From Haloplanus rubicundus (GTDB taxonomy: Archaea; Halobacteriota; Halobacteria; Halobacteriales; Haloferacaceae): a stretch of DNA of 64,000 nt. The position numbers and the translations under genes were made by a program. Position 1 is the stretch's first letter. Each line of letters starts with the position of its first letter. The notes under the pieces were generated by a model. That model had not been told where the DNA came from and did not search any database. It saw only the letters and a program-made list of their open reading frames with translations. Below are positions 12,323-27,918 of this stretch, piece by piece. Where the stretch lies: positions 3,337,388 to 3,401,387 of the forward strand of contig NZ_CP031148.1 of the NCBI RefSeq assembly GCF_003342675.1, in the 5' to 3' direction.

Positions 12323-12395
12323 GCCCGGATGGTGTAGTGGCCCATCATACGACCCTGTCACGGTCGTGACGCGGGTTCAAATCCCGCTCCGGGCG
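12323..12395 (+). tRNA. tRNA-Asp (GTC)
   Basis: A 73-base cloverleaf: acceptor GCCCGGA (12323-12329) pairs with TCCGGGC (12388-12394). The anticodon stem CGACC/GGTCG closes the loop CTGTCAC with anticodon GTC at 12357-12359, the T arm is GCGGGTTCAAATCCCGC, and the discriminator base is G. CCA is not encoded. Its 3' end is the left attachment site of the integrated element; integration leaves the gene intact. Confidence 0.97.
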
Positions 12396-12396
12396 T
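12382..12396 (+). repeat. attL: left attachment core
   Basis: TCCCGCTCCGGGCGT at the 3' end of tRNA-Asp is repeated exactly at 25706-25720 in the same orientation. A tRNA 3' end duplicated next to an integrase gene is the classic footprint of tyrosine-recombinase integration. Confidence 0.9.
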
Positions 12397-12451
12397 CCAA
12401 TTTTAGGTTTAGTTCCCGATCATAAAGCCGGATTTGTCCAATTCCAGGCTT
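12395..12451 (+). repeat. Imperfect direct repeat next to attL
   Basis: GTCCAATTTTAGGTTT (12395-12410) recurs as GTCCAATTCCAGGCTT (12436-12451), 13 of 16 matching, spaced 41 bases. Its position beside the attachment core suggests integrase arm-type sites, but this is inference. Confidence 0.35.
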
Positions 12452-12479
12452 TTGATTCGGGTAATGGAGGGGTGGTATT

Positions 12480-12824
12480 GTGCCGGTCGTAGAAGCGCTC
12501 CCCGACCGGCCGCTCACCGACGCCGAGATCAACGCGCTTCGGCACTCCGACGCGACCGCTGCTGTGACGCCAGTCCGCGCGTTCGGCCACCTTGATATTG
12601 GGAACGCCGTCGTCGCGCTGGCATTGAGTACGGCTGCGGGCAATCATCACGCGCTGCTGTACGTCCCTGAAGAGTACGACCATCCAGACACTGGCTGGAT
12701 CCGGATTAGAGAATCCGAGTCTCACGCCGCAGCGATCCGAGTGCTTGACGAAGTTGAAGTCCCGGACGGCGACCTGGAGCGTGCCGTTCGAGAAACGCTT
12801 TACTCTGACGAGGGGCCGCAATGA
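12480..12824 (+). CDS. Hypothetical protein, first gene of the element
   Basis: This 114-residue acidic protein starts at GTG, with a good Shine-Dalgarno GGAGG at 12466-12470 nine bases upstream. No family was recognised. It is soluble, with no signal or membrane segment; the central part (DIGNAVVALALSTAAGNHHALLYV) looks like alternating strands and helix. It overlaps the next gene by ATGA, so the two are probably co-translated and may act together. Confidence 0.7.
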   Translation: MPVVEALPDRPLTDAEINALRHSDATAAVTPVRAFGHLDIGNAVVALALSTAAGNHHALLYVPEEYDHPDTGWIRIRESESHAAAIRVLDEVEVPDGDLERAVRETLYSDEGPQ

Positions 12825-14485
12825 GCCAGATCGAGCCGCAGACCCACGAAGCCGACATACAGTTCAACTTCGTGGAGTATGGGCGGAAGCCCTACTGGAT
12901 CCTCACGAAGCTCCTGATCCAGTGGTTCGACGGCTACGCCGAGCAGATTCCGTTCTCCGTCGACGGCGAGGCGTGGGAGATCGAGAAACTTCGGTACGAC
13001 AAGGGCGGTATCGCGCCGGCGCCGAGTGACACCGTCGGTGGGGACGCGCTGTACGAACTCCGCCTGACCATCAGTGGCCCCGGGCGCAGGTCGATCAACT
13101 TCCACATACGACCACGCTACGAGGGCATGGTCTCGACGAGTGGCGAGGAGATCAGCACGCCGTTCGACCACATCGACGCTTCGGAGGGCGTGAACATCCA
13201 CGCCCAGGGGAGCAACGTCGAGGTCGATCGTTATCTCGACCTGCTGCGTCGAGCGGTGCAGGCGCTCGCCAAAGAGACTGGCGAGACGGTCAATCCGCGG
13301 TACTTCCGAACGCCGCACCGGATGAGTACGATACAGGAACTCGAACTGTACGTCCGCATCCGTCGCGAGATCGCGATGCAGCTGATCGAGGCCGACGGCC
13401 CGTTCCTCCGGGCGGCAAACCTGCTGTCCGATAAGCTCGGCGCCGAGGGCGCGTACTTCTTCTCGAACTCGGGACCGAACAAGGACGTGGAGGGCTACCG
13501 ACACCGGTTCATGCTCCATCGCGAGCAGGCCTCGGAGTTCGTCACCGGGCATCGCCTGGGGAAGCAATTGAAGCTGTATCACCCGGAGAAGGTTCGCGAC
13601 GATCCCGAGGAGACCCTGTACAATCCGAAGTTCGGCGTCCTGTACTCCAGTCACAAGGAGAAGCTGGCGACGGCGTCGGTCCCGTGGCACGACCGCGACC
13701 GAGCGTATCGCGAGGTCCACGAGACGCTCCTGAACCTCCTGTCGTGGAGCGGTATCGAGACACGCCCCGATCCGACCACCTACGTCGACGACGACGCCTT
13801 CAGCGTCGAGGAAGCCGAGGAGCCCGCACGACTCGTCGACGATCCGCTGCCGCAGGTCGAGGCCGAGCAGGAGAGTTTGCTGATGAAGACGCTCGGCGAG
13901 TTGACTGAGTCCGACGAGGAAATCCTCCAGGTCGTCGCCGACGGTGGCGAGGTTGACGTCCACGAGGCCGCCGCCGAAACCGACCGCTCGCTGTCGACGA
14001 TCTACCGGGCGCAGGATCGGCTCGGTGATCTACTCCGCAACGAGAACGGGACGCTGTCCTTCATCTCCGAGAAGATACGCCAAGACCTGCAGCGCGTCCT
14101 CGACGAGACAGAGAGCGCCCTGGAGTCGGGGGTTCGTCGACTCTGTCGGTTGCTCGATGTCGACCCGCGACAGCTCGAACAGGACGGCAGCGCGTGGCAG
14201 CGCTGGGCCGCGAAGTGGGGTGCGGAGATCCTCGAACACGGCGCCGAAGAGGACCGGATGCTCATCAAGATCCAGACGATGATGGACCGGATTCGCGCAA
14301 CGGACCGGCCCCTGGTCGACGAGATAGTCGCGAAGGCGCTGGAGGCGTGGTCGGATTCCGGCGGCCCGCGCGGCGATTTCTGGAACGCGCAGGTTCGCTG
14401 GACCAACGGGCGCCAGGAGCACACCGTTTCCGTGTCGTCACTGCTCCAGCCGGACGGCTCGCCGAGGCGATCGACCGCCGACTGA
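12821..14485 (+). CDS. Large hypothetical protein with C-terminal winged-helix-like region
   Basis: The 554-residue soluble protein resembles, from memory, uncharacterised proteins found on haloarchaeal plasmids and proviruses; no function can be assigned. Residues 1-120 are beta-rich. Residues about 365-415 contain a likely helix-turn-helix (VDVHEAAAETDRSLSTIYRAQDRL), so DNA binding is plausible. The remainder is charged helix with a conserved-looking Trp-rich stretch (WQRWAAKWGAEIL). As the largest protein of the left arm, coupled by ATGA to the gene before it, it is the best candidate for a replication or control protein of the element, but no Rep motif is visible. Confidence 0.75.
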   Translation: MSQIEPQTHEADIQFNFVEYGRKPYWILTKLLIQWFDGYAEQIPFSVDGEAWEIEKLRYDKGGIAPAPSDTVGGDALYELRLTISGPGRRSINFHIRPRYEGMVSTSGEEISTPFDHIDASEGVNIHAQGSNVEVDRYLDLLRRAVQALAKETGETVNPRYFRTPHRMSTIQELELYVRIRREIAMQLIEADGPFLRAANLLSDKLGAEGAYFFSNSGPNKDVEGYRHRFMLHREQASEFVTGHRLGKQLKLYHPEKVRDDPEETLYNPKFGVLYSSHKEKLATASVPWHDRDRAYREVHETLLNLLSWSGIETRPDPTTYVDDDAFSVEEAEEPARLVDDPLPQVEAEQESLLMKTLGELTESDEEILQVVADGGEVDVHEAAAETDRSLSTIYRAQDRLGDLLRNENGTLSFISEKIRQDLQRVLDETESALESGVRRLCRLLDVDPRQLEQDGSAWQRWAAKWGAEILEHGAEEDRMLIKIQTMMDRIRATDRPLVDEIVAKALEAWSDSGGPRGDFWNAQVRWTNGRQEHTVSVSSLLQPDGSPRRSTAD

Positions 14486-14861
14486 GTCGCCGACTGGTGA
14501 GTGGCAACACCGTCGTTCGACTCCTTATTTTATAAGTAGCATCCGAAAACCCTTGTTTCGGCTGGAGTGTCGCAACCACCGAGAGCGGTCCGTTTTGGCC
14601 TCGAACAGCGTCGACCGGGTGTGATAGTTCCCGGTGGGTGGGAGGATCCCCTTAGGAAGTGCGCCTAAGGGCGCAGATAGAGAAAATACACCGCACAGCA
14701 TCGGCTGTTCCACCTGATGCACGAGAAAGGGAGGTTAGGCTATTCGGTATCGGACGCCTCAACGTCGATGTTTCGCAGCGGCGTCGAGGGCGCCAGCCTT
14801 CGTTGAGGTGACTGTTCGAGCTGTCCCTGGGAACTAAGCCCCGAGTGGCCGAAAGAGGGGT
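14486..14861. other. Intergenic region with AT-rich segment and perfect hairpin
   Basis: This 376-base gap has no convincing gene. It holds an AT-rich TATTTTATAAGTAG stretch (14526-14539) and, at 14649-14671, a perfect 8-bp inverted repeat CCCTTAGG/CCTAAGGG with a 7-base loop. Its lower GC suggests control sequences. A 65-codon minus-strand frame inside it looks non-coding. Confidence 0.5.
14649..14671. promoter_or_regulatory. 8-bp inverted repeat CCCTTAGG-N7-CCTAAGGG
   Basis: A perfect dyad, 190 bases before the small membrane protein gene and 165 after the large hypothetical gene. It could be an operator or an RNA hairpin; no T-tract follows. Confidence 0.45.
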
Positions 14862-15065
14862 ATGGACGTTAGAGGCCTGTTCACCCGGCGATTGTTGAAG
14901 TGGGCGGTGATTATCACGCTCGCTATGTCGCTGCTCTCCGGCGCGTGGACCGAACCATACCACTTCGCCGGCTACGTTGTGGGTGGTGTCATCCTGTGGA
15001 CCGTTCTCCTCGCTGCGGGGAAGGCCGTTCGAGCGGTGCTTGATCGCCGCCTTGGGTACGCGTAA
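14862..15065 (+). CDS. Small two-helix membrane protein
   Basis: The 67-residue protein has a basic N-terminus (residues 1-14), a hydrophobic helix (about 14-32) and a second one (about 35-58), then a basic tail. Small membrane proteins of this layout are common in haloarchaeal viruses and elements, including possible lysis, spike-anchoring or holin-like proteins, but nothing here fixes a role. It converges with the ribbon-helix-helix gene; the two stops are back to back. Confidence 0.65.
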   Translation: MDVRGLFTRRLLKWAVIITLAMSLLSGAWTEPYHFAGYVVGGVILWTVLLAAGKAVRAVLDRRLGYA

Positions 15066-15326
15066 TCACCGCCAGCGGCTATCCACGCTCGTCCGGTAGT
15101 GCAACGCCAGCACGTCGGTGTTCGCGATCTTCTGAATCGTCACTGGATCTACTTCCCCGCGGGCGTCGTCGATGTTTTGCTTGGACTGAATTAGGTGGGT
15201 GAGCGCGGCGTCGATCACGTCGGAACGCGGCGGGTCATCGTGTTCGCCGCTCCCGATGATCGCCGCCGCTTCGTCGAGAAGCCGCTTCCGCTCGTCGGAG
15301 AGTCGCAAGGTCGTTCGGTCGGTCAT
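15066..15326 (-). CDS. Ribbon-helix-helix regulator
   Basis: The 86-residue protein begins TDRTTLRLSDERKRLLDEAA, the pattern of a ribbon-helix-helix DNA-binding domain: a beta strand with TLRLS, then two helices. It is likely a dimeric repressor or antitoxin-like regulator for the element. A TATA-like GTTTAAGT on the minus strand (about 15391-15400) lies about 65 bases upstream, between the arms of an inverted repeat ACGGGAGG (15344-15351) and CCTCCCGT (15417-15424), which could be its own operator. No toxin partner is obvious next to it. Confidence 0.75.
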   Translation of the reverse strand: MTDRTTLRLSDERKRLLDEAAAIIGSGEHDDPPRSDVIDAALTHLIQSKQNIDDARGEVDPVTIQKIANTDVLALHYRTSVDSRWR

Positions 15327-15563
15327 TAAGTAGTGGTGTGCATACGGGAGGTCAGTTCGCGTCGCTGGCGAGTGAACGACGGGGTGATTGACTTAAACGC
15401 CTGTTCGCGATGACGGCCTCCCGTGTGTGGGCGGCCGCGCCGAGCGGCCGAATCTATACACGCGACCATCGGCGTCGACGGCGCCAGGTGCATACATTGC
15501 GTCGGGCCGTGACATTCGTCTCGAACCCCACGGGGTCGCGCCGAGATCGCCCTTCCAAGCGAT

Positions 15564-15767
15564 TCAATCATCTTCGCAGACCACCTCGCGGAGATCGTCG
15601 AGGAGCTCCGGGTGGTTCTCCTTAAGAAGTTCCACGTCGGTCGTGAGTTCATCACGTATTCGCGCTCGAACGCGTGAGACCGCTTCGTATCGGCGCTGAG
15701 GATCGTCGCCTTCACCGGCTATCTGTTCTCGCTCGTGTTCTGTCATCATTGCACGGCCACGGGCCAT
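15564..15767 (-). CDS. Small helical protein of a family common in haloarchaeal elements
   Basis: The 67-residue form begins MARGRAMMTEHEREQIAG and continues as charged helix (RRYEAVSRVRARIRDEL) to an acidic end. I recall similar small proteins in many haloarchaeal genomes and elements, without a known role; DNA or RNA binding is plausible. A longer start at 15791 exists, but the strong TATA (15794-15800) lies only a few bases before it and about 26-30 bases before 15767, so leaderless initiation at 15767 is favoured. It reads away from the 16018 operon, across a block of repeated sites. Confidence 0.65.
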   Translation of the reverse strand: MARGRAMMTEHEREQIAGEGDDPQRRYEAVSRVRARIRDELTTDVELLKENHPELLDDLREVVCEDD

Positions 15768-15793
15768 GCTATACTCGCCTTCCGCCGACATTG

Positions 15794-15890
15794 TATATAT
15801 TGACCAACCGGAGGCACAAATAGGTTGGTGCATTTGTCCAAGGTTGGATAGATAGGCCAATCATTAAGACGTTGGCGAATAGACCAACCT
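15794..15890. promoter_or_regulatory. TATA box and cluster of GACCAACC/GGTTGG operator-like sites
   Basis: Within 97 bases there is a TATATA box and repeats of one motif in both orientations: GACCAACC at 15802-15809, AGGTTGGT at 15822-15829, AAGGTTGGA at 15840-15848 and AGACCAACCT at 15881-15890, with weaker GGCCAATC and GTTGGC between. It lies between the divergent 15767 gene and 16018 operon, the usual place for a lysogeny-type switch. The binding protein is unknown; the RHH or XRE proteins of the element are candidates. Confidence 0.6.
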
Positions 15891-15932
15891 TTACGCACCG
15901 GAAACGGTCGGACGGCGTCCACTCTGATTTCA

Positions 15933-15948
15933 CCACCATGTTTGGTGG
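15933..15948. promoter_or_regulatory. Inverted repeat CCACCA-TGTT-TGGTGG
   Basis: A perfect 6-bp dyad with a 4-base spacer, 70 bases before the ATG at 16018. It may be an operator or an RNA hairpin for the operon that follows. Confidence 0.4.
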
Positions 15949-16017
15949 AATAAGATACGACGGCGTCATCAAAGGCCGGCGGCGCGGACACGCCGCTCGA
16001 CCGGTGCCACCCTAACG

Positions 16018-16338
16018 ATGGCAGAAAAGGATACGCCGCCGGACACCAAAGAGCCGGCGACTGAGACGGACGCACAACCCGCTGCGAACACCGGCGCCGC
16101 GCTGACGACCGTCGGCACGGCGCCGGCCTGGAAGTATCTCGACCTACAAGGGATCGACGGCCGCGGTCCCGTGAAGGTGCGCGGTCAGTGGCTCGACGAC
16201 GAACCGGGAACCGTCGAAATCGAGGCGAAGCTCGACGGCGCCCACCTCACGCTGGCGTTCGAGCCCGACCGCGCGCGAGCGTTCGCCGAGCAAATCGTCG
16301 AGGCCGCCCGCTTCGCTGAGGAGGGCGGCGGCCGATGA
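16018..16338 (+). CDS. Hypothetical protein, first gene of recombinase operon
   Basis: This 106-residue acidic protein has a disordered N-terminus rich in Thr, Pro, Ala and Glu (residues 1-40) and a compact C-terminal part (about 45-105) of predicted strands and a final helix. No family was recognised. It overlaps the next gene by ATGA, the first of four such overlaps running to the recombinase and its small zinc protein, so the five genes are likely made together. Confidence 0.7.
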   Translation: MAEKDTPPDTKEPATETDAQPAANTGAALTTVGTAPAWKYLDLQGIDGRGPVKVRGQWLDDEPGTVEIEAKLDGAHLTLAFEPDRARAFAEQIVEAARFAEEGGGR

Positions 16339-16565
16339 CCGACGACTGTGGGACGCCGGCTACGCACGTTGAGCTGCAGGCACCGGTTCACGAGGCGACC
16401 GTCGCGGCTGAGGCAGCTGAGGACTTGGTGGTTGTCTCGATCCGGTCGGACGCTCTCAGTCAGTGCGTGGTCCTCGATAGAGACGACGCGCGGCGCGTCG
16501 TCAACGAGATCGAGGCGGCCGTCGACGAACTGGATCGACAACAACGGGCAGGAGCGGAGCCATGA
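16335..16565 (+). CDS. Hypothetical small protein
   Basis: The 76-residue acidic protein has a beta-rich N-terminal half (THVELQAPVHEATV, EDLVVVSIRSD) and a C-terminal helix (RRVVNEIEAAVDELDRQQ). Its layout resembles the C-terminal half of the preceding protein, so the two may be distant relatives or partners. It overlaps both neighbours by ATGA. Confidence 0.7.
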   Translation: MTDDCGTPATHVELQAPVHEATVAAEAAEDLVVVSIRSDALSQCVVLDRDDARRVVNEIEAAVDELDRQQRAGAEP

Positions 16566-16762
16566 GCGCGTCGATCACGCCGGCGTACGCCGCCCGTCGC
16601 GACCCGTCCAATCCGTGGCGGTGGCGGTGCCCGGACTGTTCGGGACCGCAGATGAACCGGCGATCGACACAGACAGACACCGACCGCTACGAGTGCGACG
16701 ACTGTGGCTGGTACGGTCGCGTCGACGAGCTCAAGGACGCTCGGGAGGCCGCCGACCGATGA
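16562..16762 (+). CDS. Small zinc-ribbon protein
   Basis: The 66-residue protein contains two CxxC knuckles 21 residues apart (CPDC near residue 22 and CDDC near 43, followed by GWYGR), a classic zinc ribbon. It is likely a nucleic-acid or protein-binding accessory factor. The ATGA overlap with the recombinase gene suggests the two products function together. Confidence 0.75.
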   Translation: MSASITPAYAARRDPSNPWRWRCPDCSGPQMNRRSTQTDTDRYECDDCGWYGRVDELKDAREAADR

Positions 16763-17841
16763 AGGCCACTGGCTCAGATATAGACCAACGTCGTATGTCG
16801 CTCGAAAACCCACAGAAGCAGGATCGTAACGACTTGGAACCGATGATTCCACAGAGGGCTCTCGATGAATGGCTCGACGTGGTCGCTGACTCGACGAAAG
16901 GCAGCACAGCCGACAGCTACCGGCGCCGAGTCAGCCGGTTCATCGCGTGGTGTGAGGACGAGGGCATCCTCAACCTCAACGACGTGACCGGCCGGCACAT
17001 CAAAGCGTATCGGGATCACCGACACCCGAAGTGTGAGACTTCGACGCTGCAGAACGAACTCCGCACGGTTCGACAATTCCTTCAGTTCGGCGTCGCGGTG
17101 GAGGCCGTCGAGCCGGCGCTCCCGGAGTCGATGGGCCAAATCATCCCGTCGCTTTCCAAAGGAGACGATTCAAGCGACGTGATGCTCGGCCGTGAGCGCG
17201 CTCACGCGATCATCGACTATCTCGACGAGTACCACAAGGCGAGCCGCGAGCACGCCCTGTTCCTCCTACTGTGGGACACGGGCTGTCGGATCAGCGGCCT
17301 GCGGGCGCTCGACTTGGAAGACTTCGACGTTGGTCAGGGGACCGTGACGTTCCGAAGCCGCCCGGAATCGGACACACGCCTGAAGAACGGGCAGTCGAGC
17401 GAGCGGATAAACGTCCTCGACGAGTCAACCGTCGACGTCGTCGCGTCGTACATTCGACTCCACCGCAACGACCGGACCGACGACTACGGCCGCGAGCCGT
17501 TACTGACGACGAAGTTCGGCCGGCACGCGACGACGACGGTGCGGCGACTCGTCTACGAGCTGACCCAGCCCTGCCTTCGGGGCGGTTGCCCGCACGACGA
17601 GGACCCTCAATCCTGCGAGTATCGAGGCCACGGCCACGAGAGTAAATGCCCGTCGAGTGTGAGCCCGCACGCGATCCGGACCGGGCGCATCACTGACATG
17701 CGGAATCGAGGGTGCGATATCAAGGTCGTCTCGGGACGTGTCGACGCGATCCCCGAGACGATTCGGCGGTACTACGACAAACCGGATCTCGAACAGGATC
17801 TTTCGCGAAGAAGAGGCGCGATCTCGGATATCGGATTATGA
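16759..17841 (+). CDS. Tyrosine recombinase (XerC/D-type, haloarchaeal, with Cys/His insert)
   Basis: The 360-residue protein has an N-terminal SAM-like core-binding domain (about 30-135) and a catalytic domain with the first Arg in DTGCRISGLR, the HxxR box in SPHAIRTGRIT, and the nucleophile region RRYYDKPD. A Cys-rich insert before the HxxR box (CLRGGCPHDEDPQSCEY, KCPSS) probably binds zinc and is common in haloarchaeal recombinases. It is not next to an attachment site, unlike the second recombinase at 24374, so it may serve dimer resolution, inversion or another reaction. ATGA overlaps join it to genes on both sides. Confidence 0.88.
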   Translation: MKATGSDIDQRRMSLENPQKQDRNDLEPMIPQRALDEWLDVVADSTKGSTADSYRRRVSRFIAWCEDEGILNLNDVTGRHIKAYRDHRHPKCETSTLQNELRTVRQFLQFGVAVEAVEPALPESMGQIIPSLSKGDDSSDVMLGRERAHAIIDYLDEYHKASREHALFLLLWDTGCRISGLRALDLEDFDVGQGTVTFRSRPESDTRLKNGQSSERINVLDESTVDVVASYIRLHRNDRTDDYGREPLLTTKFGRHATTTVRRLVYELTQPCLRGGCPHDEDPQSCEYRGHGHESKCPSSVSPHAIRTGRITDMRNRGCDIKVVSGRVDAIPETIRRYYDKPDLEQDLSRRRGAISDIGL

Positions 17842-17984
17842 CTGCCGTGTGTCGACAGACCTGCACCGGCGACCGCTTCGAGCACGCCGAGACGGTCATG
17901 TCTATCGCGAAGGCGAACGAACTCCTCCGATGCCCGATTTGCCGGCGAGAGGTGCGTCTATCCGGCAGCGCCGGCGGCAACTGA
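17838..17984 (+). CDS. Tiny cysteine-containing (zinc-finger-like) protein
   Basis: The 48-residue protein follows the recombinase with an ATGA overlap. It has Cys pairs CRQTC near residue 5 and CPIC near 32, with a His between, consistent with a single zinc site. It is probably an accessory DNA-binding peptide. It ends 78 bases before the next gene; a T6 run (18035-18040) may terminate the operon. Confidence 0.6.
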   Translation: MTAVCRQTCTGDRFEHAETVMSIAKANELLRCPICRREVRLSGSAGGN

Positions 17985-18062
17985 TTCGGCCTCGCCTGCT
18001 GGTTTCCCCGCTCTCGAAATTTACGCGACACCCCTTTTTTACAGTTCATAGTATTTGGATAC

Positions 18063-18683
18063 ATGGCAAGGCAAGATTCGAGAGACGACCGCGGAAGCCG
18101 TCTCGCGCGGGTGAAACAACGCACCGTCGGAGCGCTGAGGGAACGGGCGGGATCGGCGTCACGGAGCGCACAAGATCGCGCCGAGGCCGAGATTCAGGAG
18201 CGCGCGGATGCGGACGCGGTGAAAGCAGCAGCTCGAGAAACCCTCCGCGCACTCGAGGCCGACGAAGGCGCACCGGACGGCGACTACGGGACGACCGGGA
18301 CGGAAACGGACTCGATCGCGAAGCGCGCGACCGACGCGGCCAAAGTCCGGTCGCCGATGGGTGGCTCGCTGCGCACCATCGGTGATGAACGGGTCGTCAC
18401 GGACATGGCTCGCGCCGCGGCTGCTGAGGGCGACGGGTTGGCCACGGGTGCCGGGCTGACGTTCGAGGGCGAGGCATCCGACCGACCGGAGCGAGCAGCC
18501 AGCGACCCAGCCTTCGTCGGCGTGAGTGCCGGATTCGGGATGGAAGGCGGGGACGATCCGGTTGCTGGCGAGGGGTTGAGCGTCGCCGATCCGTTCGGCC
18601 TTACTGGCACCGCGGACAACCGCGACGACGGGGGCGACGACGATCCGTTCCCCGGAGTTCGCCTGTTCGGAGGTGAGGAGTAG
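18063..18683 (+). CDS. Hypothetical protein paired with the 1095-residue protein
   Basis: This 206-residue protein has no signal or membrane segment. Residues 1-75 are Ala/Arg/Glu-rich and should be helical; the rest is Gly/Asp-rich with little predicted structure (MGGSLRTIGDE, GMEGGDDPVAGEGLSV). It is followed directly (no gap) by the large low-complexity gene, and the two share acidic Gly/Asp composition. A joint role, such as structural or chaperone-and-client, is possible but unproven. Confidence 0.7.
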   Translation: MARQDSRDDRGSRLARVKQRTVGALRERAGSASRSAQDRAEAEIQERADADAVKAAARETLRALEADEGAPDGDYGTTGTETDSIAKRATDAAKVRSPMGGSLRTIGDERVVTDMARAAAAEGDGLATGAGLTFEGEASDRPERAASDPAFVGVSAGFGMEGGDDPVAGEGLSVADPFGLTGTADNRDDGGDDDPFPGVRLFGGEE

Positions 18684-21600
18684 ATGGCGCGTCGTGGCTC
18701 GACCGGCGACGACAGCGACAACGACTTCTCCGGCGTCGGTGGCGGATCCGACACCGACACCGGCAGCGGCGTCACGGGCGACGACGGCTCGGATACGTCG
18801 TTCTCCGGCGGCGGCGGGGGCAACGACAGCAGCAACACCGGCGGCTCGGATACTGGCGGCGGCGATACCGGAGGTGGTGTCGGTGGAGGCGATAGCGATA
18901 GCGACCAGCCAGATTCATGGGGTGACGGCGGTGGCAGCGACGACGACACGTCGGGCGTCGTCGGCGGTGGCGGTGACCGTCGAGGATCGGATTCGGACAC
19001 GACCTATTCGGGCGGCGGCAGCGACACGGACGCCGGCAGCGGCGTCACGGGCGACGACGGCTCGGACACGACGTTTGAGGGTGGCGACAGCGACCAGAAC
19101 CAAACCCAGGCTCCTCAGGGTGACACCGGCACCGACGATCCTGACACCGACCCGGATCGCGGCACCTCCGTGACCGAGACGCCGGACGGTGACACCGTCG
19201 CGAACACGGGCGACGGCAACGTCCAAGTCGGCGACACGACCGACCGCGGCGTCGGGGTCACGCGGAATCCCGAGGGGATCGAGACCGTCGTCCCGGCCCC
19301 GGGCGACAGCGCGCCCGGTCGTGGGGGTGAAAACGAAGGCGAACTCCCGATGTCGACGCCGGCGCAGCCGACGGACGTGGCGGCGCTCGGCCCGAACCAG
19401 CAACGCGACCTGCAGCGGAGGTTGAGTGACGGCGAGATTCGAGCGGCCGTGACGCGGTTCGGACAGCGCCAACTCGGCCGGCCGACGCCGGTCGAGAGCC
19501 CTTACGAACCGGTCGGACCCGTCGACTTCGCGGTCGATGCTCTCTTTCAGGACAGCGAGGAGGTGGCACCGTACTTCGGCATCACCGGCGCCGCTGCACG
19601 CCGGGACACCGTGGACCTCGGCGGGCCAACCCTGGGGCTTGATCCAGGCGCACGCGATCCAGTGAACACCGACGTGACGGACGCGCTCACCGAGGGGCGA
19701 GGGCGCTTCAGCGAGGAGACGGTCGCCGACGTTCGTCGACGTGCTGAGGGCTACCAGGAGTTCTTCGGCGTCGGTGCCGAGGCCGATCGCCTCGTGACCG
19801 AACTCACCGGGAACGCCGAGGCGGGCAACTTTGCCCGCGGTCTCGGGAATGTTCCCGGCAACATCGCCGCCGCTCCGTCGCAGGGCGTGCTCATCTACAA
19901 TACAGCCTGGCAGGTCGGGCGGAATCTTCCCGAGACTGTCGACGAGTACGGTGCCGGAACGGTCGCCGACACCGCGCTCGATACCTCCGGGGCGATCCTC
20001 CAAGGGACGACGCGCAGCGCCCGCCGCCGCCCGTATCAGACCGGGGGGAACCTCCTCGGCGAGGCGGTGGTGGGAACGGCGGCGGTCCGCGCTGGGGGCG
20101 GCCTGGGGACACGGATTCGCTCGGCGCGAGTGCGTCGGCAGGCCGATGAGACGGTCCAGCTTGAGGACACTACGAGCGAGCGGGGTGTCGAGGGCGCATT
20201 GCCATATTTCGATACTGACACTGACGCCCCCACCGAACAGGCTGTCGCCGAGGTGCGTGAACGCGCCGCGGACAACCCGGATACCGTGCTCGACGCCCTC
20301 TACGGCGATGCCGACCGCGTTCTCTTCCACTCGACCGAGGCGGATCTCGGTGACGAGTTCGAGGCGGCCCGCGGGTCGTCGGAGCTTCCGGGGTTGTTCA
20401 CGTCACCGGATGCCTCACCCCTCCGGATTCAGGATTCGGAGAGTTCGTGGCTCTCTCGGCCTGAAATCCGCTTCCCGAGGGCGTCGGATTTCACCGGTGG
20501 CAGCGACCGGTTCGCCGGCTTCCGCGGTGATCGAATCGAAGGGATGCCCGATGATGCGACCGGAGCGCGTCGTATCCCCGACCCCGACGGAGGGACACGG
20601 CCCGACCCGCGGACATCCGGCGCGCAGTTCCTCGACGAGGCGGCTGAGGAAGGGACGGCTTACGTCCGCCCGCCAGGGAGTCGCACCGAAGAGTTAGAGG
20701 CGATCTACCCACCTGGAAGTGGGTTCCAAATGCGGAACCGGCTCGCGGTCGAGCTGCCGAGCGGGCGGGCCGTCCCGCTTGACCTGTTCGAGCGGGCCGG
20801 ACGCACCGACCTGGATACGGAGGATGCCCGGACGGCCGACACCGCTCGGCAGACCGGGGAGGAGATTTCCGCGCGCTACTCGTCGGAACTCGACGAGTCG
20901 GGCACCCCCGTGACGCCGCCGCTCGGTCTCGGGGGAAGTACGGGGACCGGCGCCGAGACGGAGCTGCCGGATGTTGAAAAGAGTGGTGGCGCCGACGGCC
21001 CGGACGGCGGTGGCGAGACTACTGATGAGCCGAGCGACGGCCTCCTCGACGCCACGCCCCGCACCGACGCGGGCGACGACGGCCTCCTCAGCGTGACGCC
21101 ACGCGACGGCGGTGGAAGCGACGACAGAGGTGGCGACGGGGCTGACGAGTCCGGCGACGGCCTCACCGACTCGACGCGTCGTGACGACGGTGGCGACGAT
21201 CTACTCGGCGTGACACCTCGCGATGACGAGGGGAGTAACGGCAGCGCGTCGGACACTCCGAGCCAAGACGACAGCCTCCTGGGCGTCAGCTCGCCGACCG
21301 ATGGTGCGGACGACGGGTTCCTCGACCCGACCCCGCGCAGCGAAGACAGCGCGCCCGCCGGCGGTGGAACCGGATCGGGCGCCGCGAGTGGCCGCGACGA
21401 CGGCTATTTCATGCCGTCGCTTACGTCGACGCTCGGCGGGTCGGGTGGAAGTGGCGGATCGTGGTTCGGCTCCGGACTGTCGCTCCCTGGATCGCCGGGG
21501 ACGCCGACGGGTGGGAGCGGACCGGGGTCGCCCGGCTCCCCGTCGGGTGGGAGTGGACCCGGCTCGCCCCCCGGCCCGACAGGTGGCACTCCCTACACTC

Positions 21601-21971
21601 CATTCACGCCGCCGACCGTTCCGAACCGCCGCGACCGTGATCGCGACCGCGATCCAGGGTTCGACTTCGAGATCGACACCGACCGGTTCGGAGGAGCGAC
21701 GGCTGAGGACGACCGCCCCCTCAGCGTCGGCTACTACAACGAGTTCATCGCCGACTTCGCGTTCGGCGCCGCGCCGACCCAGGCCCCGAGTCAGGAGACG
21801 CTGGCGGACTTCGGTGGTGCGGCGGCGTTCACGGAGCAGCTACCTACGCTCCGCGAGCTCGAAGCCGAGGGCGATCGCCGTGATGCCCTCGAAGCGGCCT
21901 ACGACACGTTCGGGTTCAGCGGCCTCAGTGTCACCTCCGACGGCGGCAGTGACGACAGCGGGTTCCTGTAG
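18684..21971 (+). CDS. Giant repeat-rich protein with possible ADP-ribosyltransferase-like segment
   Basis: The 1095-residue protein is the largest in the element. Residues 1-165 are Gly/Ser/Asp/Thr low complexity with repeated DTGSGVTGDDGSDT blocks. Residues about 235-480 form a structured region. Residues about 545-690 contain LFHST (His549), GLFTSP (570-575) and ELEAIYPPGSGF (Glu670-x-Glu672), the order and spacing seen in H/R-S/T-ExE ADP-ribosyltransferase folds. Residues about 785-890 are a run of about six degenerate DGLL-x-x-TPR units, then a Pro/Gly/Ser collagen-like stretch and an acidic tail. No signal peptide is present. It could be a virion protein, a toxin-like effector or both; the enzyme call is inference. 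Confidence 0.8.
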   Translation: MARRGSTGDDSDNDFSGVGGGSDTDTGSGVTGDDGSDTSFSGGGGGNDSSNTGGSDTGGGDTGGGVGGGDSDSDQPDSWGDGGGSDDDTSGVVGGGGDRRGSDSDTTYSGGGSDTDAGSGVTGDDGSDTTFEGGDSDQNQTQAPQGDTGTDDPDTDPDRGTSVTETPDGDTVANTGDGNVQVGDTTDRGVGVTRNPEGIETVVPAPGDSAPGRGGENEGELPMSTPAQPTDVAALGPNQQRDLQRRLSDGEIRAAVTRFGQRQLGRPTPVESPYEPVGPVDFAVDALFQDSEEVAPYFGITGAAARRDTVDLGGPTLGLDPGARDPVNTDVTDALTEGRGRFSEETVADVRRRAEGYQEFFGVGAEADRLVTELTGNAEAGNFARGLGNVPGNIAAAPSQGVLIYNTAWQVGRNLPETVDEYGAGTVADTALDTSGAILQGTTRSARRRPYQTGGNLLGEAVVGTAAVRAGGGLGTRIRSARVRRQADETVQLEDTTSERGVEGALPYFDTDTDAPTEQAVAEVRERAADNPDTVLDALYGDADRVLFHSTEADLGDEFEAARGSSELPGLFTSPDASPLRIQDSESSWLSRPEIRFPRASDFTGGSDRFAGFRGDRIEGMPDDATGARRIPDPDGGTRPDPRTSGAQFLDEAAEEGTAYVRPPGSRTEELEAIYPPGSGFQMRNRLAVELPSGRAVPLDLFERAGRTDLDTEDARTADTARQTGEEISARYSSELDESGTPVTPPLGLGGSTGTGAETELPDVEKSGGADGPDGGGETTDEPSDGLLDATPRTDAGDDGLLSVTPRDGGGSDDRGGDGADESGDGLTDSTRRDDGGDDLLGVTPRDDEGSNGSASDTPSQDDSLLGVSSPTDGADDGFLDPTPRSEDSAPAGGGTGSGAASGRDDGYFMPSLTSTLGGSGGSGGSWFGSGLSLPGSPGTPTGGSGPGSPGSPSGGSGPGSPPGPTGGTPYTPFTPPTVPNRRDRDRDRDPGFDFEIDTDRFGGATAEDDRPLSVGYYNEFIADFAFGAAPTQAPSQETLADFGGAAAFTEQLPTLRELEAEGDRRDALEAAYDTFGFSGLSVTSDGGSDDSGFL

Positions 21972-21975
21972 TAAA

Positions 21976-22242
21976 ATGTCGAAAACCAGAAACCGGTATC
22001 CTCGCGACGAGCCGGACCCGGAGTTCGGCGATCTTGAACCTCATCCATCGGAGTGGAAGTTACCGACGCCCGAGGAGTTGCGCGAGCTCCGTATCCTCTC
22101 GGGGCTGACGATTCGTGAGGTGGCTCACCGGATCGACGTGTCACCTGACTCGGTGCGGCGCTGGGAGAAAGGACAGCACTCGCCTCGTCTCACCGATGTT
22201 CGAGTTATCGTCGAGGTTTGCCTCGGCGAAGCAGGTGAGTGA
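21976..22242 (+). CDS. XRE-family helix-turn-helix regulator
   Basis: The 88-residue protein carries an HTH near residues 33-72: ELRELRILSGLTIREVAHRI, then DVSPDSVRRWEKG, the typical XRE/Cro pattern. It begins 4 bases after the stop of the 1095-residue gene, so it is probably co-transcribed. It could control the operator-like repeats at 15.8 kb. The acidic N-terminus (PDPEFGDLEPHPSEWKLPTP) looks like a protein-contact tail. Confidence 0.8.
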   Translation: MSKTRNRYPRDEPDPEFGDLEPHPSEWKLPTPEELRELRILSGLTIREVAHRIDVSPDSVRRWEKGQHSPRLTDVRVIVEVCLGEAGE

Positions 22243-22637
22243 GCACGATCGGAGCTTCGCGCGTTCTCTCTCGACCTCGAATGGAATCGAAATCGAACTG
22301 CCGATCATCTTTCCGGGTCCCGCGCCCGCCCGCGCGGTCGACGCGAGAGCGCAAATATGGCTTTAGGGTATAGGGTGTGTGCGTTCTGTGTGAGATTTCT
22401 GCCTCTCTGTGTGTGTTATTGGCCTCCTGTCTATCCGTATCGGCGCTTTTGCCCGTGCTTTCGATGGTCGTGCCCTCTGTCGCGACTACTGTGGCGAGGG
22501 GTTGGGTCGAATGTCCGCCGTCCTGTGGTTTTCCGTTCACACCATCTGTTCTGTCCTAACTGGGTACTCCGTTGTACTGAATAAGTCCTACTTTAGAACA
22601 GGATAAGAACTATACCAGTACATGACAAGTACCGACT
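22243..22637. other. Low-GC, pyrimidine-rich intergenic region
   Basis: This 395-base stretch differs from its surroundings, with GTGTGTG and TCTGCCTCTCTG tracts and a lower GC content. Several short frames are open on both strands, but their Cys/Trp/Arg-rich products look like chance. It could hold a non-coding RNA or a replication/segregation region; no iteron or hairpin series was seen. TATA-like TACTTTAGAA near 22590 may serve the next gene. Confidence 0.4.
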
Positions 22638-22820
22638 ATGCGCCCGAACATTGATGAAAAAATCATCGATGAACTGACAATGAGAGCCGACCAAGTAATG
22701 ACTGTTGATGCTGAGGATGTTTCGGTTGAACAACGCCTGAAAGCCGTTTTATCGACGATTGATGATTTGGATGGGGATCCGAATGTCCTCAATGAAAATT
22801 GGTACGACTCTAAAGATTGA
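22638..22820 (+). CDS. Small acidic helical protein
   Basis: The 60-residue protein is predicted to be mostly helix (IDEKIIDELTMRADQVM, SVEQRLKAVLSTIDDLDG). Its codons are AT-richer than those of the neighbours (ATT, GAT, TTA), a sign of recent transfer. No family was recognised. A candidate promoter (AAGAACTATACC, about 22605-22616) lies roughly 25-30 bases upstream. Confidence 0.6.
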   Translation: MRPNIDEKIIDELTMRADQVMTVDAEDVSVEQRLKAVLSTIDDLDGDPNVLNENWYDSKD

Positions 22821-22896
22821 TATTTTGTAACGTGAAAGGTCGTAGGAGTTTATCAGACCGGAAGCGGAGGTCATAGGCGATGCTACGCTAAGAATT

Positions 22897-23100
22897 ATGA
22901 AACGAAACCCGGTGAAGGAACACCGGGCCGACGACGACCTCGGACGGCGGTCGTGGGCGCCACCGAGGAATGCATACCAGGCGATGTCGTCGGTCTGTTG
23001 TTCCCACCCCTGCCTCATAGCATTTTGGTGTAAACGAGGCAGTCGGTCAAGATCGTCTCAAGTAACGACTACCGACAGTAAGCGGGGGCGAATGGGATGA
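22897..23100 (+). CDS. Possible small basic protein
   Basis: The 67-codon frame begins at ATG 22897 and ends in an ATGA overlap with the next gene, which argues for translation. The product is Arg/Ser/Cys-rich without a recognisable fold, and the region could equally be untranslated leader. Confidence 0.3.
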   Translation: MKRNPVKEHRADDDLGRRSWAPPRNAYQAMSSVCCSHPCLIAFWCKRGSRSRSSQVTTTDSKRGRMG

Positions 23101-23312
23101 GTGCACAGCGTCCGACAGCGGGCGAAGAGACGACGCTGGCTGGCGACATGGCCGTCGACGCCTGTCGTCGTGGCCAACCGCCCAAGCACGCCAAGGAAGG
23201 CGTTGCACGCTTCCTCTGGAAGTGTCCGCCGGCTCACCCTCGCCGCGTTGCGAAGTGGTACGCTCGCGCCCGTGCCGAGGGGCTAATCGTCGACAGTGGA
23301 GGTGGTGCGTAG
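23097..23312 (+). CDS. Hypothetical small protein (winged-helix-like?)
   Basis: The 71-residue protein has a central helix set (HAKEGVARFLWKCPPAHPRRVAKWYARARAEG, residues about 30-62) that could be a helical DNA- or protein-binding unit. It shares a TAGTG stop/start overlap with the following gene. It belongs to a run of tightly packed small genes before the integrase; the function is unknown. Confidence 0.55.
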   Translation: MSAQRPTAGEETTLAGDMAVDACRRGQPPKHAKEGVARFLWKCPPAHPRRVAKWYARARAEGLIVDSGGGA

Positions 23313-23608
23313 TGCGGACGTTCACAATCCCGCGAACGCAGGTTTACATCGGCGAGGAGTTCCTTTTCGCCGAGTGGGTTGGCGACGAGCACTATCGGGC
23401 CGTGTTCGAACTCGACGACGAGCGGGCGATCTTTCGCCACGTAGAGGCGATCCGGAACGAGGAGCAGCAGCTTGATAGCAGCGTTTTCGAAGACGTTCCG
23501 AATGGTGTCAAATGGGTCGTGAGGGCCTACGGCTACGAGCTCTACAAGATTGATAACGGGAACGACGACGACGATGAAGCCGAACACGTCGGGAGGGATT
23601 TCGCGTGA
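23312..23608 (+). CDS. Hypothetical small acidic protein
   Basis: This 98-residue protein starts at GTG within the TAGTG overlap and ends overlapping the next gene's GTG. It looks like a compact alpha/beta fold (FTIPRTQVYIGEEFLFAEWV, then EHYRAVFELDD) with an Asn/Asp-rich tail. Overlaps on both sides fix the start. No family was recognised. Confidence 0.65.
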   Translation: MRTFTIPRTQVYIGEEFLFAEWVGDEHYRAVFELDDERAIFRHVEAIRNEEQQLDSSVFEDVPNGVKWVVRAYGYELYKIDNGNDDDDEAEHVGRDFA

Positions 23609-23871
23609 GCGTGCAGGCTCCCGGATCCGGTTCCGAGCGTGTCGACGTGACGCTGCACGCCGAAAATCGGTTCCTCGAACGCGTCGACGCCACCGACCTG
23701 TACCCGGCTGAGCGGATCGCCCGTGAGGTGAGCGAGGCGGTGCCGGTGCAGCTCGAAGCCCGCGGCGAGCATCGACAAATCGTGCAGCATCCGGAGTCGG
23801 GTGCGCTTTACGTCTACGACGTAGCGGACTCAACGGTTGTGACCGTACTCCCTCCCCAGGAGGTGCGTTGA
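23605..23871 (+). CDS. Hypothetical protein, possibly DUF4258/RelE-like fold
   Basis: The 88-residue protein starts at GTG overlapping the preceding stop. The segment VTLHAENRFLERVDAT followed by strands (RQIVQHPESGALYVYDV, STVVTVLPP) resembles small toxin-like or DUF4258 proteins that begin with H-x-x-x-R-x-x-E/R and end in strands. This is a weak pattern match. If it holds, the preceding acidic 98-residue protein could be its partner. Confidence 0.6.
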   Translation: MSVQAPGSGSERVDVTLHAENRFLERVDATDLYPAERIAREVSEAVPVQLEARGEHRQIVQHPESGALYVYDVADSTVVTVLPPQEVR

Positions 23872-24176
23872 GAGTGATCGGTCCGACCGGCGGCACGCTT
23901 TTGCCGAGCGCTACTGAAAAGGATCGACAAGATACAGACACACAACACGCTAACCGATCAGAAACGAGTCGGGGAGGGAAGCCCCAACACGAACCACATG
24001 CTTCTCTCTCACGGCGGCTCTTAGAGGTAACGCCTCGGCAGAGTCGACGCCGTGACCGCCGGCGGCTCACCGCGGTCGTCAGTCTACGATGCACGACCAC
24101 CCACAGCATGGATCGACTGAGCCGCTTCGGAATCGAACGCCGTCGTCGTATGGCCGCCAGGGAGGTGAGTCGATAG
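23872..24176. other. 305-base stretch with only a doubtful frame
   Basis: A frame starting at TTG 23868 runs to TAG at 24174-24176, directly before the next ATG, but the 102-residue product is Arg/Ser/Thr-rich and unlike a folded protein. The position between tightly packed genes keeps it possible. No hairpin or promoter stands out. Confidence 0.35.
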
Positions 24177-24365
24177 ATGGCCTCGGCCGACACCGACCCC
24201 GACCGCTACGTCCGCGAGAACCGCGAGACGCTGGTGCGAATCATCAAGCACGGAAACGACGACTTCGTTCGTGCGCTCGCTCTCGCGGCGATCGTGGAAT
24301 ACGGCGGCGACCCGGAGATTCAGACGCTACGGCGAGAACTCGACCGCCTCGAATCGGAGGGGTAG
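24177..24365 (+). CDS. Small helical protein next to integrase
   Basis: The 62-residue acidic protein (DRYVRENRETLVRIIKHGNDDFVRALALAAI) is predicted to be almost all helix. It converges with the integrase gene, with 8 bases between stops. It could be an excisionase-like or regulatory protein by position only; no HTH is certain. Confidence 0.55.
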   Translation: MASADTDPDRYVRENRETLVRIIKHGNDDFVRALALAAIVEYGGDPEIQTLRRELDRLESEG

Positions 24366-24373
24366 ACGTGAGT

Positions 24374-25657
24374 TCACTCGTCGGTCTCGTCGACGAACCG
24401 CCGCGCCGTCTTGATCACGTCGGGATCGCCGCCGAGGGCTTCGACGAGCGGCTCCATCTCTTCAAGCCGGTCGAGGAGTTCGGGGTGGTCTTTCGCCAAG
24501 CCGAGGAGCTGCCGGCGCTGGCTTTCCTGAACCTCTTCGAGCTCGTCGACGGCGCCGTGCTCGATCGCCTGGTGGCACCACATACAGAACTCCTCGCTTC
24601 GAGGGGTGTCGCGGCCACACCGCGGACAGGTGACGGCGGCGATCGGGTCGGGCTCCTCTTCACTCACGTCGACGCCGTGGGCGCGGGCGACCTCCCGATC
24701 GCTCGCTTCGGAGAACACCGAGATATACCGCGCCGCAGCCTTCGAGCCGCGGGTCCATCCGTGATGATCTTCGAGGACCGGCTGATTCACGCCGCGACTG
24801 GCGAGGAACGACGCCGAGGACTTCCGGAAGTTCGTGAAGGTGACGGGTTTCTCGACGCCGGCGTGGTCGGCCGCCTGTCGCGGGATCTTTCGGGCCATCT
24901 GGTAACTGATTTCCTCACCGCTCCGGAGCTTACACCACAGCGGCGCCGTACTGTCGTCGCTCCGCGGGTGGTCGGCGAGCCACCGCTCCAAGAACGGGAC
25001 GGACGTAATCAGCGTGACCGAGCGCTGTCCCTTCTTCCCGTCGACGCTGATTCGGAAACCGTGGGTGTGGTCAGATACGTCGCCGACGCGAAGGTCGAGG
25101 AGTTCGCCGGCACGAGGGCCGGCGTCGAAGGCGACCGCGATGAGCGCCGCGTCGCGGGCGTTCATCGTGGCGTCGATCATCGGGAGCACGTCATCATCCC
25201 AGTCGAGCATCTTCGCCGGATCGGGCGTCGGGTCGTAGTTCCGACTCGTCGTCGTCGGAATCCACCCCATACTTTCGGGGAATCCGTCGTCGTCGGTCGG
25301 CGCCTCGGCGCCGTGCTCGACGACGCGCTTCCCGAACATTCGGAGGGCGATCCGGAAGTCCTTGTTCGTCTCGGGGGTCTCCTCGGGGTCGTGCTCGTCG
25401 TGAATCCAGCGGACGATGCCCTCGGCCGCCTCTTTGTCGGTAAGGGCATCGGCGAGGGTGTTTCCCTCCCCCTCGGCCATGACGGTGCAGTGCCGGAGGA
25501 GCTTTTCACGGCGCTGCTTCCCGTATTCGGAGGGGAGGAGCGCCATCCGGTCGTCGAAGGCGAGGAGGAGTTCGCGATCCTCGTCGGCCACCTCACGCTC
25601 GCCGCCTTCGAGCTGTTCGCGGAGCATTTCGAGGCGGCGGTCGGGGTTAGTGACCAT
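24374..25657 (-). CDS. Site-specific integrase (tyrosine recombinase) of the element
   Basis: The 427-residue haloarchaeal phage-type integrase has an N-terminal DNA-binding half and a catalytic half with DAGPRAGELLDLRVGD (first Arg), TNFRKSSASFLASRG (the HxxR box, with Asn for His as is usual in this group), HHGWTRGSKAAARYISVF (His/Trp box and Tyr nucleophile), and a C-terminal zinc ribbon CPRC...CMWC near residue 355-375. It starts 49 bases inside attR and reads inward, the usual layout for tRNA-targeting elements. It is almost certainly the enzyme that joined the element to tRNA-Asp. A GTATAAGA box lies very close to the ATG, so ATG 25627 is an alternative start. Confidence 0.93.
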   Translation of the reverse strand: MVTNPDRRLEMLREQLEGGEREVADEDRELLLAFDDRMALLPSEYGKQRREKLLRHCTVMAEGEGNTLADALTDKEAAEGIVRWIHDEHDPEETPETNKDFRIALRMFGKRVVEHGAEAPTDDDGFPESMGWIPTTTSRNYDPTPDPAKMLDWDDDVLPMIDATMNARDAALIAVAFDAGPRAGELLDLRVGDVSDHTHGFRISVDGKKGQRSVTLITSVPFLERWLADHPRSDDSTAPLWCKLRSGEEISYQMARKIPRQAADHAGVEKPVTFTNFRKSSASFLASRGVNQPVLEDHHGWTRGSKAAARYISVFSEASDREVARAHGVDVSEEEPDPIAAVTCPRCGRDTPRSEEFCMWCHQAIEHGAVDELEEVQESQRRQLLGLAKDHPELLDRLEEMEPLVEALGGDPDVIKTARRFVDETDE

Positions 25658-25705
25658 GACGTATCTTATACTTCAAATGTTGGGGAGTTAAACCTGTGGT
25701 GTAAT

Positions 25706-25720
25706 TCCCGCTCCGGGCGT
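25706..25720 (+). repeat. attR: right attachment core
   Basis: This is an exact copy of the 15-bp core at 12382-12396, here without the rest of a tRNA. It marks the right end of the element. Confidence 0.9.
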
Positions 25721-26529: not shown

Positions 26530-27918
26530 ATGGACGATCAATTCGACATCTCACGGCGGAAGGCCCTCGCGGCCCTCGGCACCATCGGGGTGGCGTCGGC
26601 CGGCGCGGGACTCGGGACGAGCGCGTACTTCAGCGATCAGGAGACGTTCGACAACAACTCCCTCGTCGCCGGTACGCTCGACGTGGGCGTCGCCTATTCG
26701 GCGCACTACTCCGACTGGAGCGCCGACGAGGACGACGACTTGGCGGGAGACATTCGGATGCCCGAGGGACAGGTCGGCGGGTCGGGTGACCTCGAACCGG
26801 GCGAGGTCGGCCTCCCGGCCAACGACGCGTGGCTGATCGCCGTCGAGAGCCAGACCGACGCGGAACAGTTCCTCGAAAACACGCAGTACGACTCGTACAA
26901 CGACGGATCGCTCGACTGCGTGGACGGCGAGGCGAACAGTCAGGCCGATGGCATCGACCGCCCCGTGATCGAACTCGACGACGTGAAACCCGGCGACTTC
27001 GGCGAGATCACCTTCGACTTCGTCCTCTGTGACAATCCCGGCTTCGTCTGGCTGGACGGCACGCTTCGAGCTGCGGCCGAGAACGGCCTGACCGAACCCG
27101 AGGCCGACGACCCCGACGAGGAGGAGGGCGTCGTCGAACTGCTCGACGTCGTGCAGGCGGCGGTCTGGATCGACGACGGCAACAACTACCAGAACGGCAC
27201 GGAGTCACCGATCACCGTCGGCTCTATCCGCGACGTCCTCGGCATGCTGAACGAGGGGAGCCTCGGAACCGCGCTTAACGGCGACATCCCCGCCGAGGAG
27301 GGCGGCGGCGCGGCCGGGGCCCGGAACTGCTTCTCCGGCGGAACCCAACACTCCGTCGTGTTCGCGTGGTGGGTGCCGGTCGACCACGGCAACGAGATCC
27401 AGTCCGACTCCGCGACGTTCGACCTGGGGCTCTACGCCGAGCAGTGCCGCCACAACGACGGCTCCGGCATGAACGACGAACCGACCGGCGATCCCGGTGG
27501 GGATCCCGGCGACGGTACCGGAGAGCCCGGCGACGGATCACAGGCGATCAGCTTCCTCGCGGCCTGCGTCGAGGAGGGACGAGACGTCGACGTCGACATC
27601 ACCGTGACGGAAGTCACCGGCACCGACGATGACGGCGACGCGACGGCGGTCAAGTGGGAGGTCACCGAGGAGAACGGGACCGACGACTTCGAGGGGATCG
27701 ACGTCTTCGTCGCGAAGTACAGCACGTACTTCACGACGTACTTCTACGAGGATCCGGTCACGTCCGGGGAGGCAATAACCGGGGAGAACGGGAGCTCCGT
27801 CGAGACGACGAGTCAGTTCAGCGAGGAGGATCAGACTCCGAGCGACCCCTGTCCGGACGGCTACGTGTCGGCCGGCAAGGAAGAAGCCGACGAGTTGGGG
27901 ATCCTGAACGACGACTGA
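26530..27918 (+). CDS. Exported TasA/CalY-like protein (SipW-type signal peptide)
   Basis: The 462-residue protein has an RR-containing N-terminal signal (SRRKALAALGTIGVASAGAG) running into TSAYFSDQETFDNNSLVAGTLDV, the hallmark of SipW-dependent TasA/CalY-like surface proteins. The globular part (about 30-325) is acidic and Cys-containing. A Gly/Asp/Pro linker (about 320-340) joins a C-terminal domain with Cys and Tyr-rich VFVAKYSTYFTTYFYEDP. It is likely a cell-surface or fibre protein. No signal peptidase gene is adjacent. The start at 26530 is chosen because an upstream in-frame GTG-type extension lacks signal features. Confidence 0.8.
   Translation: MDDQFDISRRKALAALGTIGVASAGAGLGTSAYFSDQETFDNNSLVAGTLDVGVAYSAHYSDWSADEDDDLAGDIRMPEGQVGGSGDLEPGEVGLPANDAWLIAVESQTDAEQFLENTQYDSYNDGSLDCVDGEANSQADGIDRPVIELDDVKPGDFGEITFDFVLCDNPGFVWLDGTLRAAAENGLTEPEADDPDEEEGVVELLDVVQAAVWIDDGNNYQNGTESPITVGSIRDVLGMLNEGSLGTALNGDIPAEEGGGAAGARNCFSGGTQHSVVFAWWVPVDHGNEIQSDSATFDLGLYAEQCRHNDGSGMNDEPTGDPGGDPGDGTGEPGDGSQAISFLAACVEEGRDVDVDITVTEVTGTDDDGDATAVKWEVTEENGTDDFEGIDVFVAKYSTYFTTYFYEDPVTSGEAITGENGSSVETTSQFSEEDQTPSDPCPDGYVSAGKEEADELGILNDD

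Follow-up and report, generated by a model that had tools for sequence, protein, structure and literature searches.

What kind of element occupies the tRNA-Asp locus of Haloplanus rubicundus? The window, by which we mean the whole 64,000-nucleotide stretch of DNA analysed, carries at this locus (genome G000, contig 2) a 13.3-kb integrative element that an earlier sequence-only reading had left unassigned to any type. We consider it likely a plasmid: it would excise through its own integrase and replicate as a rolling circle, production of virions by the element itself is unlikely, and its giant protein is predicted to act against or with lemon-shaped viruses. As judged from its genes, the element belongs to the plasmids-and-integrative-elements class named for DUF7845 proteins (PMC13107129), because its backbone of replication initiator (Rep), integrase, and tRNA repeat recurs with other cargo in the family.

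The element is real. Its integration target, a tRNA-Asp (GTC) gene predicted by ARAGORN (12323..12395, + strand) that adjoins rpoH in 10 congeners, was left intact. The tRNA 3' end provides attL (TCCCGCTCCGGGCGT, 12382..12396, +), and a second copy of the same sequence forms attR (25706..25720, +), making a perfect 15-bp direct repeat. In the region next to and outside the integrase, the longest match to the tRNA end was these 15 bases, versus at most 11 in 200 shuffles. When up to two mismatches were allowed, the window contained three matches to the 15-mer, where chance would give 1.0 on average; the repeat evidence therefore consists of the perfect pair alone. The gene of the 427-amino-acid (aa) integrase begins 49 bases away from the right copy and points inward, and the open reading frame (ORF) list places about 18 genes between the copies, with open frames of 1095, 554, 427, and 360 aa. 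The sequence-only reading was thus correct in describing a tRNA-Asp-linked element with an integrase just inside its right repeat, roughly 18 genes, two tyrosine recombinases, and a single giant protein of 1095 aa.

Comparison within the genus confirmed the insertion. All 12 genomes sampled from the genus contained the tRNA-Asp flank; outside G000, the best match in each of the 11 ended at 12395-12398, at the tRNA end. Inspection for empty sites, a check that the sequence-only reading had proposed, covered ten of these 11 genomes (G456 was left out), and rpoB-rpoH-tRNA-Asp stood without the element in all ten. On the right-hand side, the OB-fold and thiolase genes were kept at L070, L071, and L072, and the TasA-like gene was also kept at L070. 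The support for the exact right junction is a single 29-base match (86%) in L071, beyond which 600 bases of right flank had no counterpart at congener loci.

Two further observations concern the flanks. One or two extra copies of the tRNA-Asp 3' end lie downstream of the tRNA in 6/10 congeners at a spacing of about 134-150 bases (L070 2348 and 2496, L071 2229, L072 2178, L073 2163, L074 2082, and L076 1432, with the tRNA turned onto the plus strand), each preceded by a palindrome-bearing unit, forming small tRNA-end repeat units. The TasA-like gene right of the element (window 26530-27918) is a member of a family with matches at many sites across G000 and its congeners.

The claim that the element had no replication gene did not hold. 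Its 554-aa protein (12821..14485, +) is a Rep-Arvir rolling-circle initiator (DUF7845) that matched PF25227, the N-terminal domain of this family, with 318 bits (cut-off 27) over the whole profile and phrog_3288 with 437 bits. A tblastn search with this Rep matched 21 phage records, all at <60% identity; the 20 of these among the matches listed were pleomorphic viruses, SNJ2, Haloarcula virus Harhisp1, and the lemon-shaped virus LSV-48N. The portion of PMC13107129 (2026) cited here reports that the SNJ2 member was identified as a rolling-circle initiator by experiment and names the family Rep-Arvir. It also reports that an origin hairpin downstream of the SNJ2 rep is essential, as proven by mutation, and that in betapleolipoviruses the hairpin lies within about 210 bp downstream of rep. 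In our alignments Y253 of the Rep matched the SNJ2 catalytic Y283, a residue absolutely conserved in the family, with tyrosine in 8/8 aligned Reps, E10 matched E25, and DGG 374-376 matched 408-410. The SNJ2 metal-binding acidic residues E25, D207, and E303 corresponded to E10, E173, and G272 in one alignment. For the central winged helix expected of the family, the match to HVO_A0114 scored 19 bits, below the cut-off of 27.6, with the DGG motif conserved.

Downstream of rep, the window contained the conserved motif 1 (GAGTGGCAACAC, 14499..14510, +) just 3' of the gene, and a predicted origin hairpin (TTAGGAAGTGCGCCTAAGGGCGCA, 14652..14675, +; stem TGCGCC-TAAG-GGCGCA) 167 bases after the rep stop. 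Motif 1 and the origin pattern each occurred once in the window and in 0 of 100 shuffles. We compared 16 rep-downstream regions, from the window, SNJ2, HHPV3, LSV-48N, and 12 fetched loci. A broader form of motif 1 was found in 15/16, with HHPV3 being the region without it. The origin pattern TTAG-N3..7-TG-N2..4-Y-TAAR was found 162-177 bases after the rep stop in 15/16, L084 being the sole region without it, versus 0.003 per region after base shuffling. A stem of 4-9 pairs round a TAAG-like loop was possible in 15/15 origin regions, although taking the best pairing per region biases this test towards finding a stem. The stem sequences vary (GCGCC, GTGCC, GTACC, GTGGC, GTCCC, and others), and because stems with differing sequences still pair, the origin stem appears to covary.

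The Rep and the terminal integrase together define a backbone that is recurrent in haloarchaea: a tRNA gene, an inward-reading Rep, exchangeable cargo, an inward-reading integrase, and a repeat of the tRNA end. The element fits this architecture. Its integrase (24374..25657, -; PF00589, 59 bits) has a zinc-ribbon-like stretch at the C-terminus. Relatives of the integrase were found at E <= 1e-20 in 58/170 family genomes and those of the Rep at E <= 1e-10 in 81/170, own genome included in both counts. The matches listed comprised 85 integrase rows and 114 Rep rows, among which 18 Rep-integrase pairs lay no more than 60 kb apart on one contig; a smaller row set gave the same 18. Seventeen of them face inward with spans of 5.7-48 kb, and the eighteenth re-uses a Rep already paired. 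The other 67 integrase rows listed had no Rep partner within 60 kb, and therefore integrase and Rep also occur separately. All six elements checked for a repeat, namely those fetched with a tRNA and the same integrase type (window, L081, L082, L083, L085, and L093/94), carried the tRNA 3' end a second time as a repeat of 13-17 bp, compared to at most 11 in shuffles; its position ranged between 8 bases inside and 227 bases outside the called integrase start. A 62-aa gene adjoins the integrase (24177..24365, +), and its relatives of 60-67 aa sit beside the same integrase type at six fetched loci (L081, L082, L083, L084, L085, and L094). Cargo varies between elements. The sequence-only reading had suggested a new mobile element class, which for the backbone is not supported; of the gene order that it proposed to look for elsewhere, the backbone does recur at tRNA genes, with differing cargo.

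The backbone modules have been exchanged, because similar integrases accompany Reps from different branches. In the Rep tree the window Rep grouped with that of L080 (100/100), while the Reps of L081-L085 formed a separate branch (100/99), yet the L081-L085 integrases were 52-58% identical to the window integrase. LSV-48N and SNJ2 fell within a nine-row branch (100/99) that excluded the window Rep. On the reading of the element as a plasmid, excision would join attL and attR. The Rep and integrase genes, now inward-facing at opposite ends, would then read away from a shared attP, and the Rep would nick the TAAG loop and so start rolling-circle replication.

In Pfam and PHROGs scans of the element proteins, no match at E < 0.01 was to a family for capsids, packaging, or conjugation, in agreement with the sequence-only reading. 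Two weak PHROG rows were 'head scaffolding' for the 114-aa gene (E 0.043) and 'terminase small subunit' for the HTH protein (E 0.012). The same scans gave no betapleolipovirus spike, membrane protein, or NTPase, with no one-by-one comparison of SNJ2 structural proteins to the window. When the LSV-type gene set was compared to the element by tblastn, the only matches were the Rep, one recombinase, and the giant protein. The spike-like coding sequence (CDS) 12, CDS 19, and the ATPase CDS 23 had no match in the element, while their relatives matched both control proviruses, L104 and L105.

The opinion that the element fits no pleolipovirus, tailed virus, or plasmid pattern stands in part. No phage or plasmid record had at least 60% identity to the proteins tried, and among the papers listed on haloarchaeal satellites, pleolipoviruses, and spindle-shaped viruses, no title or abstract opening described the element or its giant protein. 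However, the replication module is of the betapleolipovirus/LSV-48N type and the backbone recurs. Among the closest known counterparts is class ii of PMC13107129, the DUF7845 plasmids and integrative elements, with which the element has in common a Rep-Arvir, an integrase, a downstream origin hairpin, and no virion or conjugation genes found; cargo like the giant protein of LSV-like clusters is not described in the cited portion of that paper. With the betapleolipovirus SNJ2 the element shares the Rep family, the origin motif, and an SNJ2-type recombinase. This second recombinase (360 aa, 16759..17841, +) was 39% identical to the SNJ2 integrase over 347 aa (E 6e-81) and matched in 13 phage records. 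Unlike SNJ2, the element contained no detected counterpart of VP12, VP13, or the NTPase and has a second, unrelated integrase at its end, and its Rep and terminal integrase face each other and would not form one operon after circularisation. The Haloferax lemon-shaped virus LSV-48N likewise has a Rep-Arvir (28%), an SNJ2-type recombinase (38%), and the origin, but at 24.9 kb it is about twice the size, and the element is without CDS 12, CDS 19, CDS 23, and other LSV genes. According to the cited part of PMC12714723, the LSV-48N strain has three further raised-coverage regions and a putative 12-kb element, no proteins of the latter being detected in the supernatant.

Related Reps (64%, 38%, and 36%) with the same origin motif also occur at L080, L087, and L089, which differ from the element by 11 further genes, in common order in L080 and L087 (five also in L089), that the element does not contain. 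These loci (L080 6005-17062, L087 4108-15924, and L089 6995-17763) make up a provirus-like family with 11 membrane, secreted, and ATPase-like genes, and phrog_22963 is found in L080 and L089.

The cargo that sets the element apart is the giant protein, an open frame of 1095 aa (18684..21971, +) with 15 other database relatives. Its core domain (residues 480-712; 20121..20819, +) has a predicted ADP-ribosyltransferase-like fold (predicted local distance difference test, pLDDT, 83.9; predicted template modelling score, pTM, 0.81), and E670-x-E672 was invariant in 22/22 aligned sequences. E-x-E is the motif of R-S-E class ADP-ribosyltransferases. In four genomes (L006/L105, L007, L009, and L104) the neighbours of its relatives include LSV-48N-type genes, spike-like and CDS 19-like; L105, from genome G439 in the same family as G000, was a 100% match to L006 of Halolamina salifodinae in the genes compared. 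In the LSV-48N-related proviruses the giant protein occupies the place of LSV CDS 15, and it is read as a product of the presumed virion operon of viruses like LSV-48N. Two other carriers, L102 and L103, resemble the window: in the stretches examined, neither a spike-like nor a CDS 19-like gene was found. The single 20-kb stretch L102 (genome G072) repeats the recombinase, the genes at 22638-22820 and 23605-23871, and the giant protein, the last by profile, its relation not being shown by single-sequence search. L102 also has an Orc1/Cdc6 gene nearby and has in common with the LSV-like L104 a small membrane gene adjacent to that of the giant protein; Rep-Arvir was not among the matches listed for G072.

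Side observations on two carriers add to this range. L103 1-14028 has 78 identical terminal bases, giving a probable 13.95-kb circle. A relative of the giant protein is encoded there together with a primase-polymerase and an ATPase resembling CDS 23; a spike-like gene was not found. The AT-rich IMG/VR contig L008 (5700-8282 and 9552-13349) encodes a distant relative of the giant protein, followed downstream by a protein of 1265 aa that looks secreted, in an LSV-cluster-like layout.

In LSV-like viruses the giant protein may be a virion component, and its ADP-ribosyltransferase-like core might act on a host or viral protein. A plasmid could then carry it for packaging by a related virus or for interference with one. 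Taken further, this leads to the alternative that the element is a satellite of lemon-shaped viruses, self-replicating and packaged by an LSV-like helper, with the giant protein as a virion part that the element contributes or with which it diverts assembly. That most of the giant protein's other occurrences are in LSV-like proviruses lends this reading some weight. It is also favoured by the three carriers (window, L102, and L103) without spike-like and CDS 19-like genes in the stretches examined, by an element about half the size of LSV-48N, and by the giant protein itself, whose N- and C-terminal ends are 60-74% identical among P0010, P0013, and P0014 while the cores are 24-27% identical. 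Against it, the one spike-like query tried found no LSV-like helper in the element's own genome, neither a packaging signal nor a morphogenesis gene was recognised, and the L102 boundaries are not established. We regard a satellite as possible but doubtful. The bolder proposal, that this is the first satellite kind of lemon-shaped archaeal viruses, a compact self-replicating element whose single giant ADP-ribosyltransferase-like virion protein with an exchangeable core boards or sabotages LSV-like helper particles, we consider unlikely.

A decayed LSV-like provirus, from which the ATPase gene and the spike-like and CDS 19-like genes have disappeared, would explain why the Rep, the SNJ2-type recombinase, and the giant protein all have counterparts in LSV-48N or related loci. 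We judge it improbable, since the element retains intact large frames, att sites, and origin and LSV has a different backbone: the 427-aa integrase and the adjacent 62-aa gene have relatives that accompany unrelated cargo and have no match in LSV-48N, and the window Rep lies outside the LSV-48N/SNJ2 branch. A complete virus with unrecognised coat proteins is very improbable, for although LSV-48N is itself described, in the cited part of PMC12714723, as having no ORF similar to a known capsid protein, and L080, L087, and L089 with their related Reps are provirus-like, the LSV-like, L080-like, and SNJ2 genomes do carry spike-sized, ATPase, or membrane genes, whereas inspection by eye and family scans of the element gave no secreted spike-sized protein, no ATPase, and one small membrane protein only.

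The remaining genes of the presumed plasmid are small. A 114-aa gene overlapping the rep start (12480..12824, +) had no Pfam match. Beyond the origin lie a hydrophobic 67-aa protein with two membrane stretches by eye (14862..15065, +; no family above cut-off), an 86-aa DUF7386 protein (15066..15326, -; PF24111, 138 bits) with a relative in L103 (E 7e-7), and a phrog_26393 protein of 98 aa or shorter (15564..15860, -; E 2e-29). A four-gene operon with 4-bp overlaps (16018-17841) follows, comprising genes from the ORF list of 106 aa (16018..16338, +) and 76 aa (16335..16565, +), a 66-aa gene with zinc-ribbon-like cysteines and weak matches only (16562..16762, +), and last the SNJ2-type recombinase. 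Between this operon and the giant gene, directly 5' of the latter, is a 206-aa gene (18063..18683, +) with no Pfam or PHROG match. On the other side of the giant gene are an HTH_31/HTH_3 regulator of 88-90 aa (21970..22242, +; Pfam E 1.5e-11), the two genes common to L102, of 60 aa (22638..22820, +; E 8e-10) and 88 aa (23605..23871, +; E 7e-8), and, from the ORF list, an acidic protein of 98 aa (23312..23608, +), or 128 aa with a start at 23222.

What had been an element of unassigned type becomes a testable replicon, whose Rep and origin are also those of pleomorphic viruses, of a lemon-shaped virus, and of plasmid-like elements with exchangeable cargo at tRNA genes. The giant protein family, with its predicted ADP-ribosyltransferase-like core, is found both in gene clusters from relatives of lemon-shaped viruses and in compact elements that carry no virion genes. 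Since the family occurs in both settings, plasmid-virus exchange or satellite parasitism in haloarchaea becomes directly testable.
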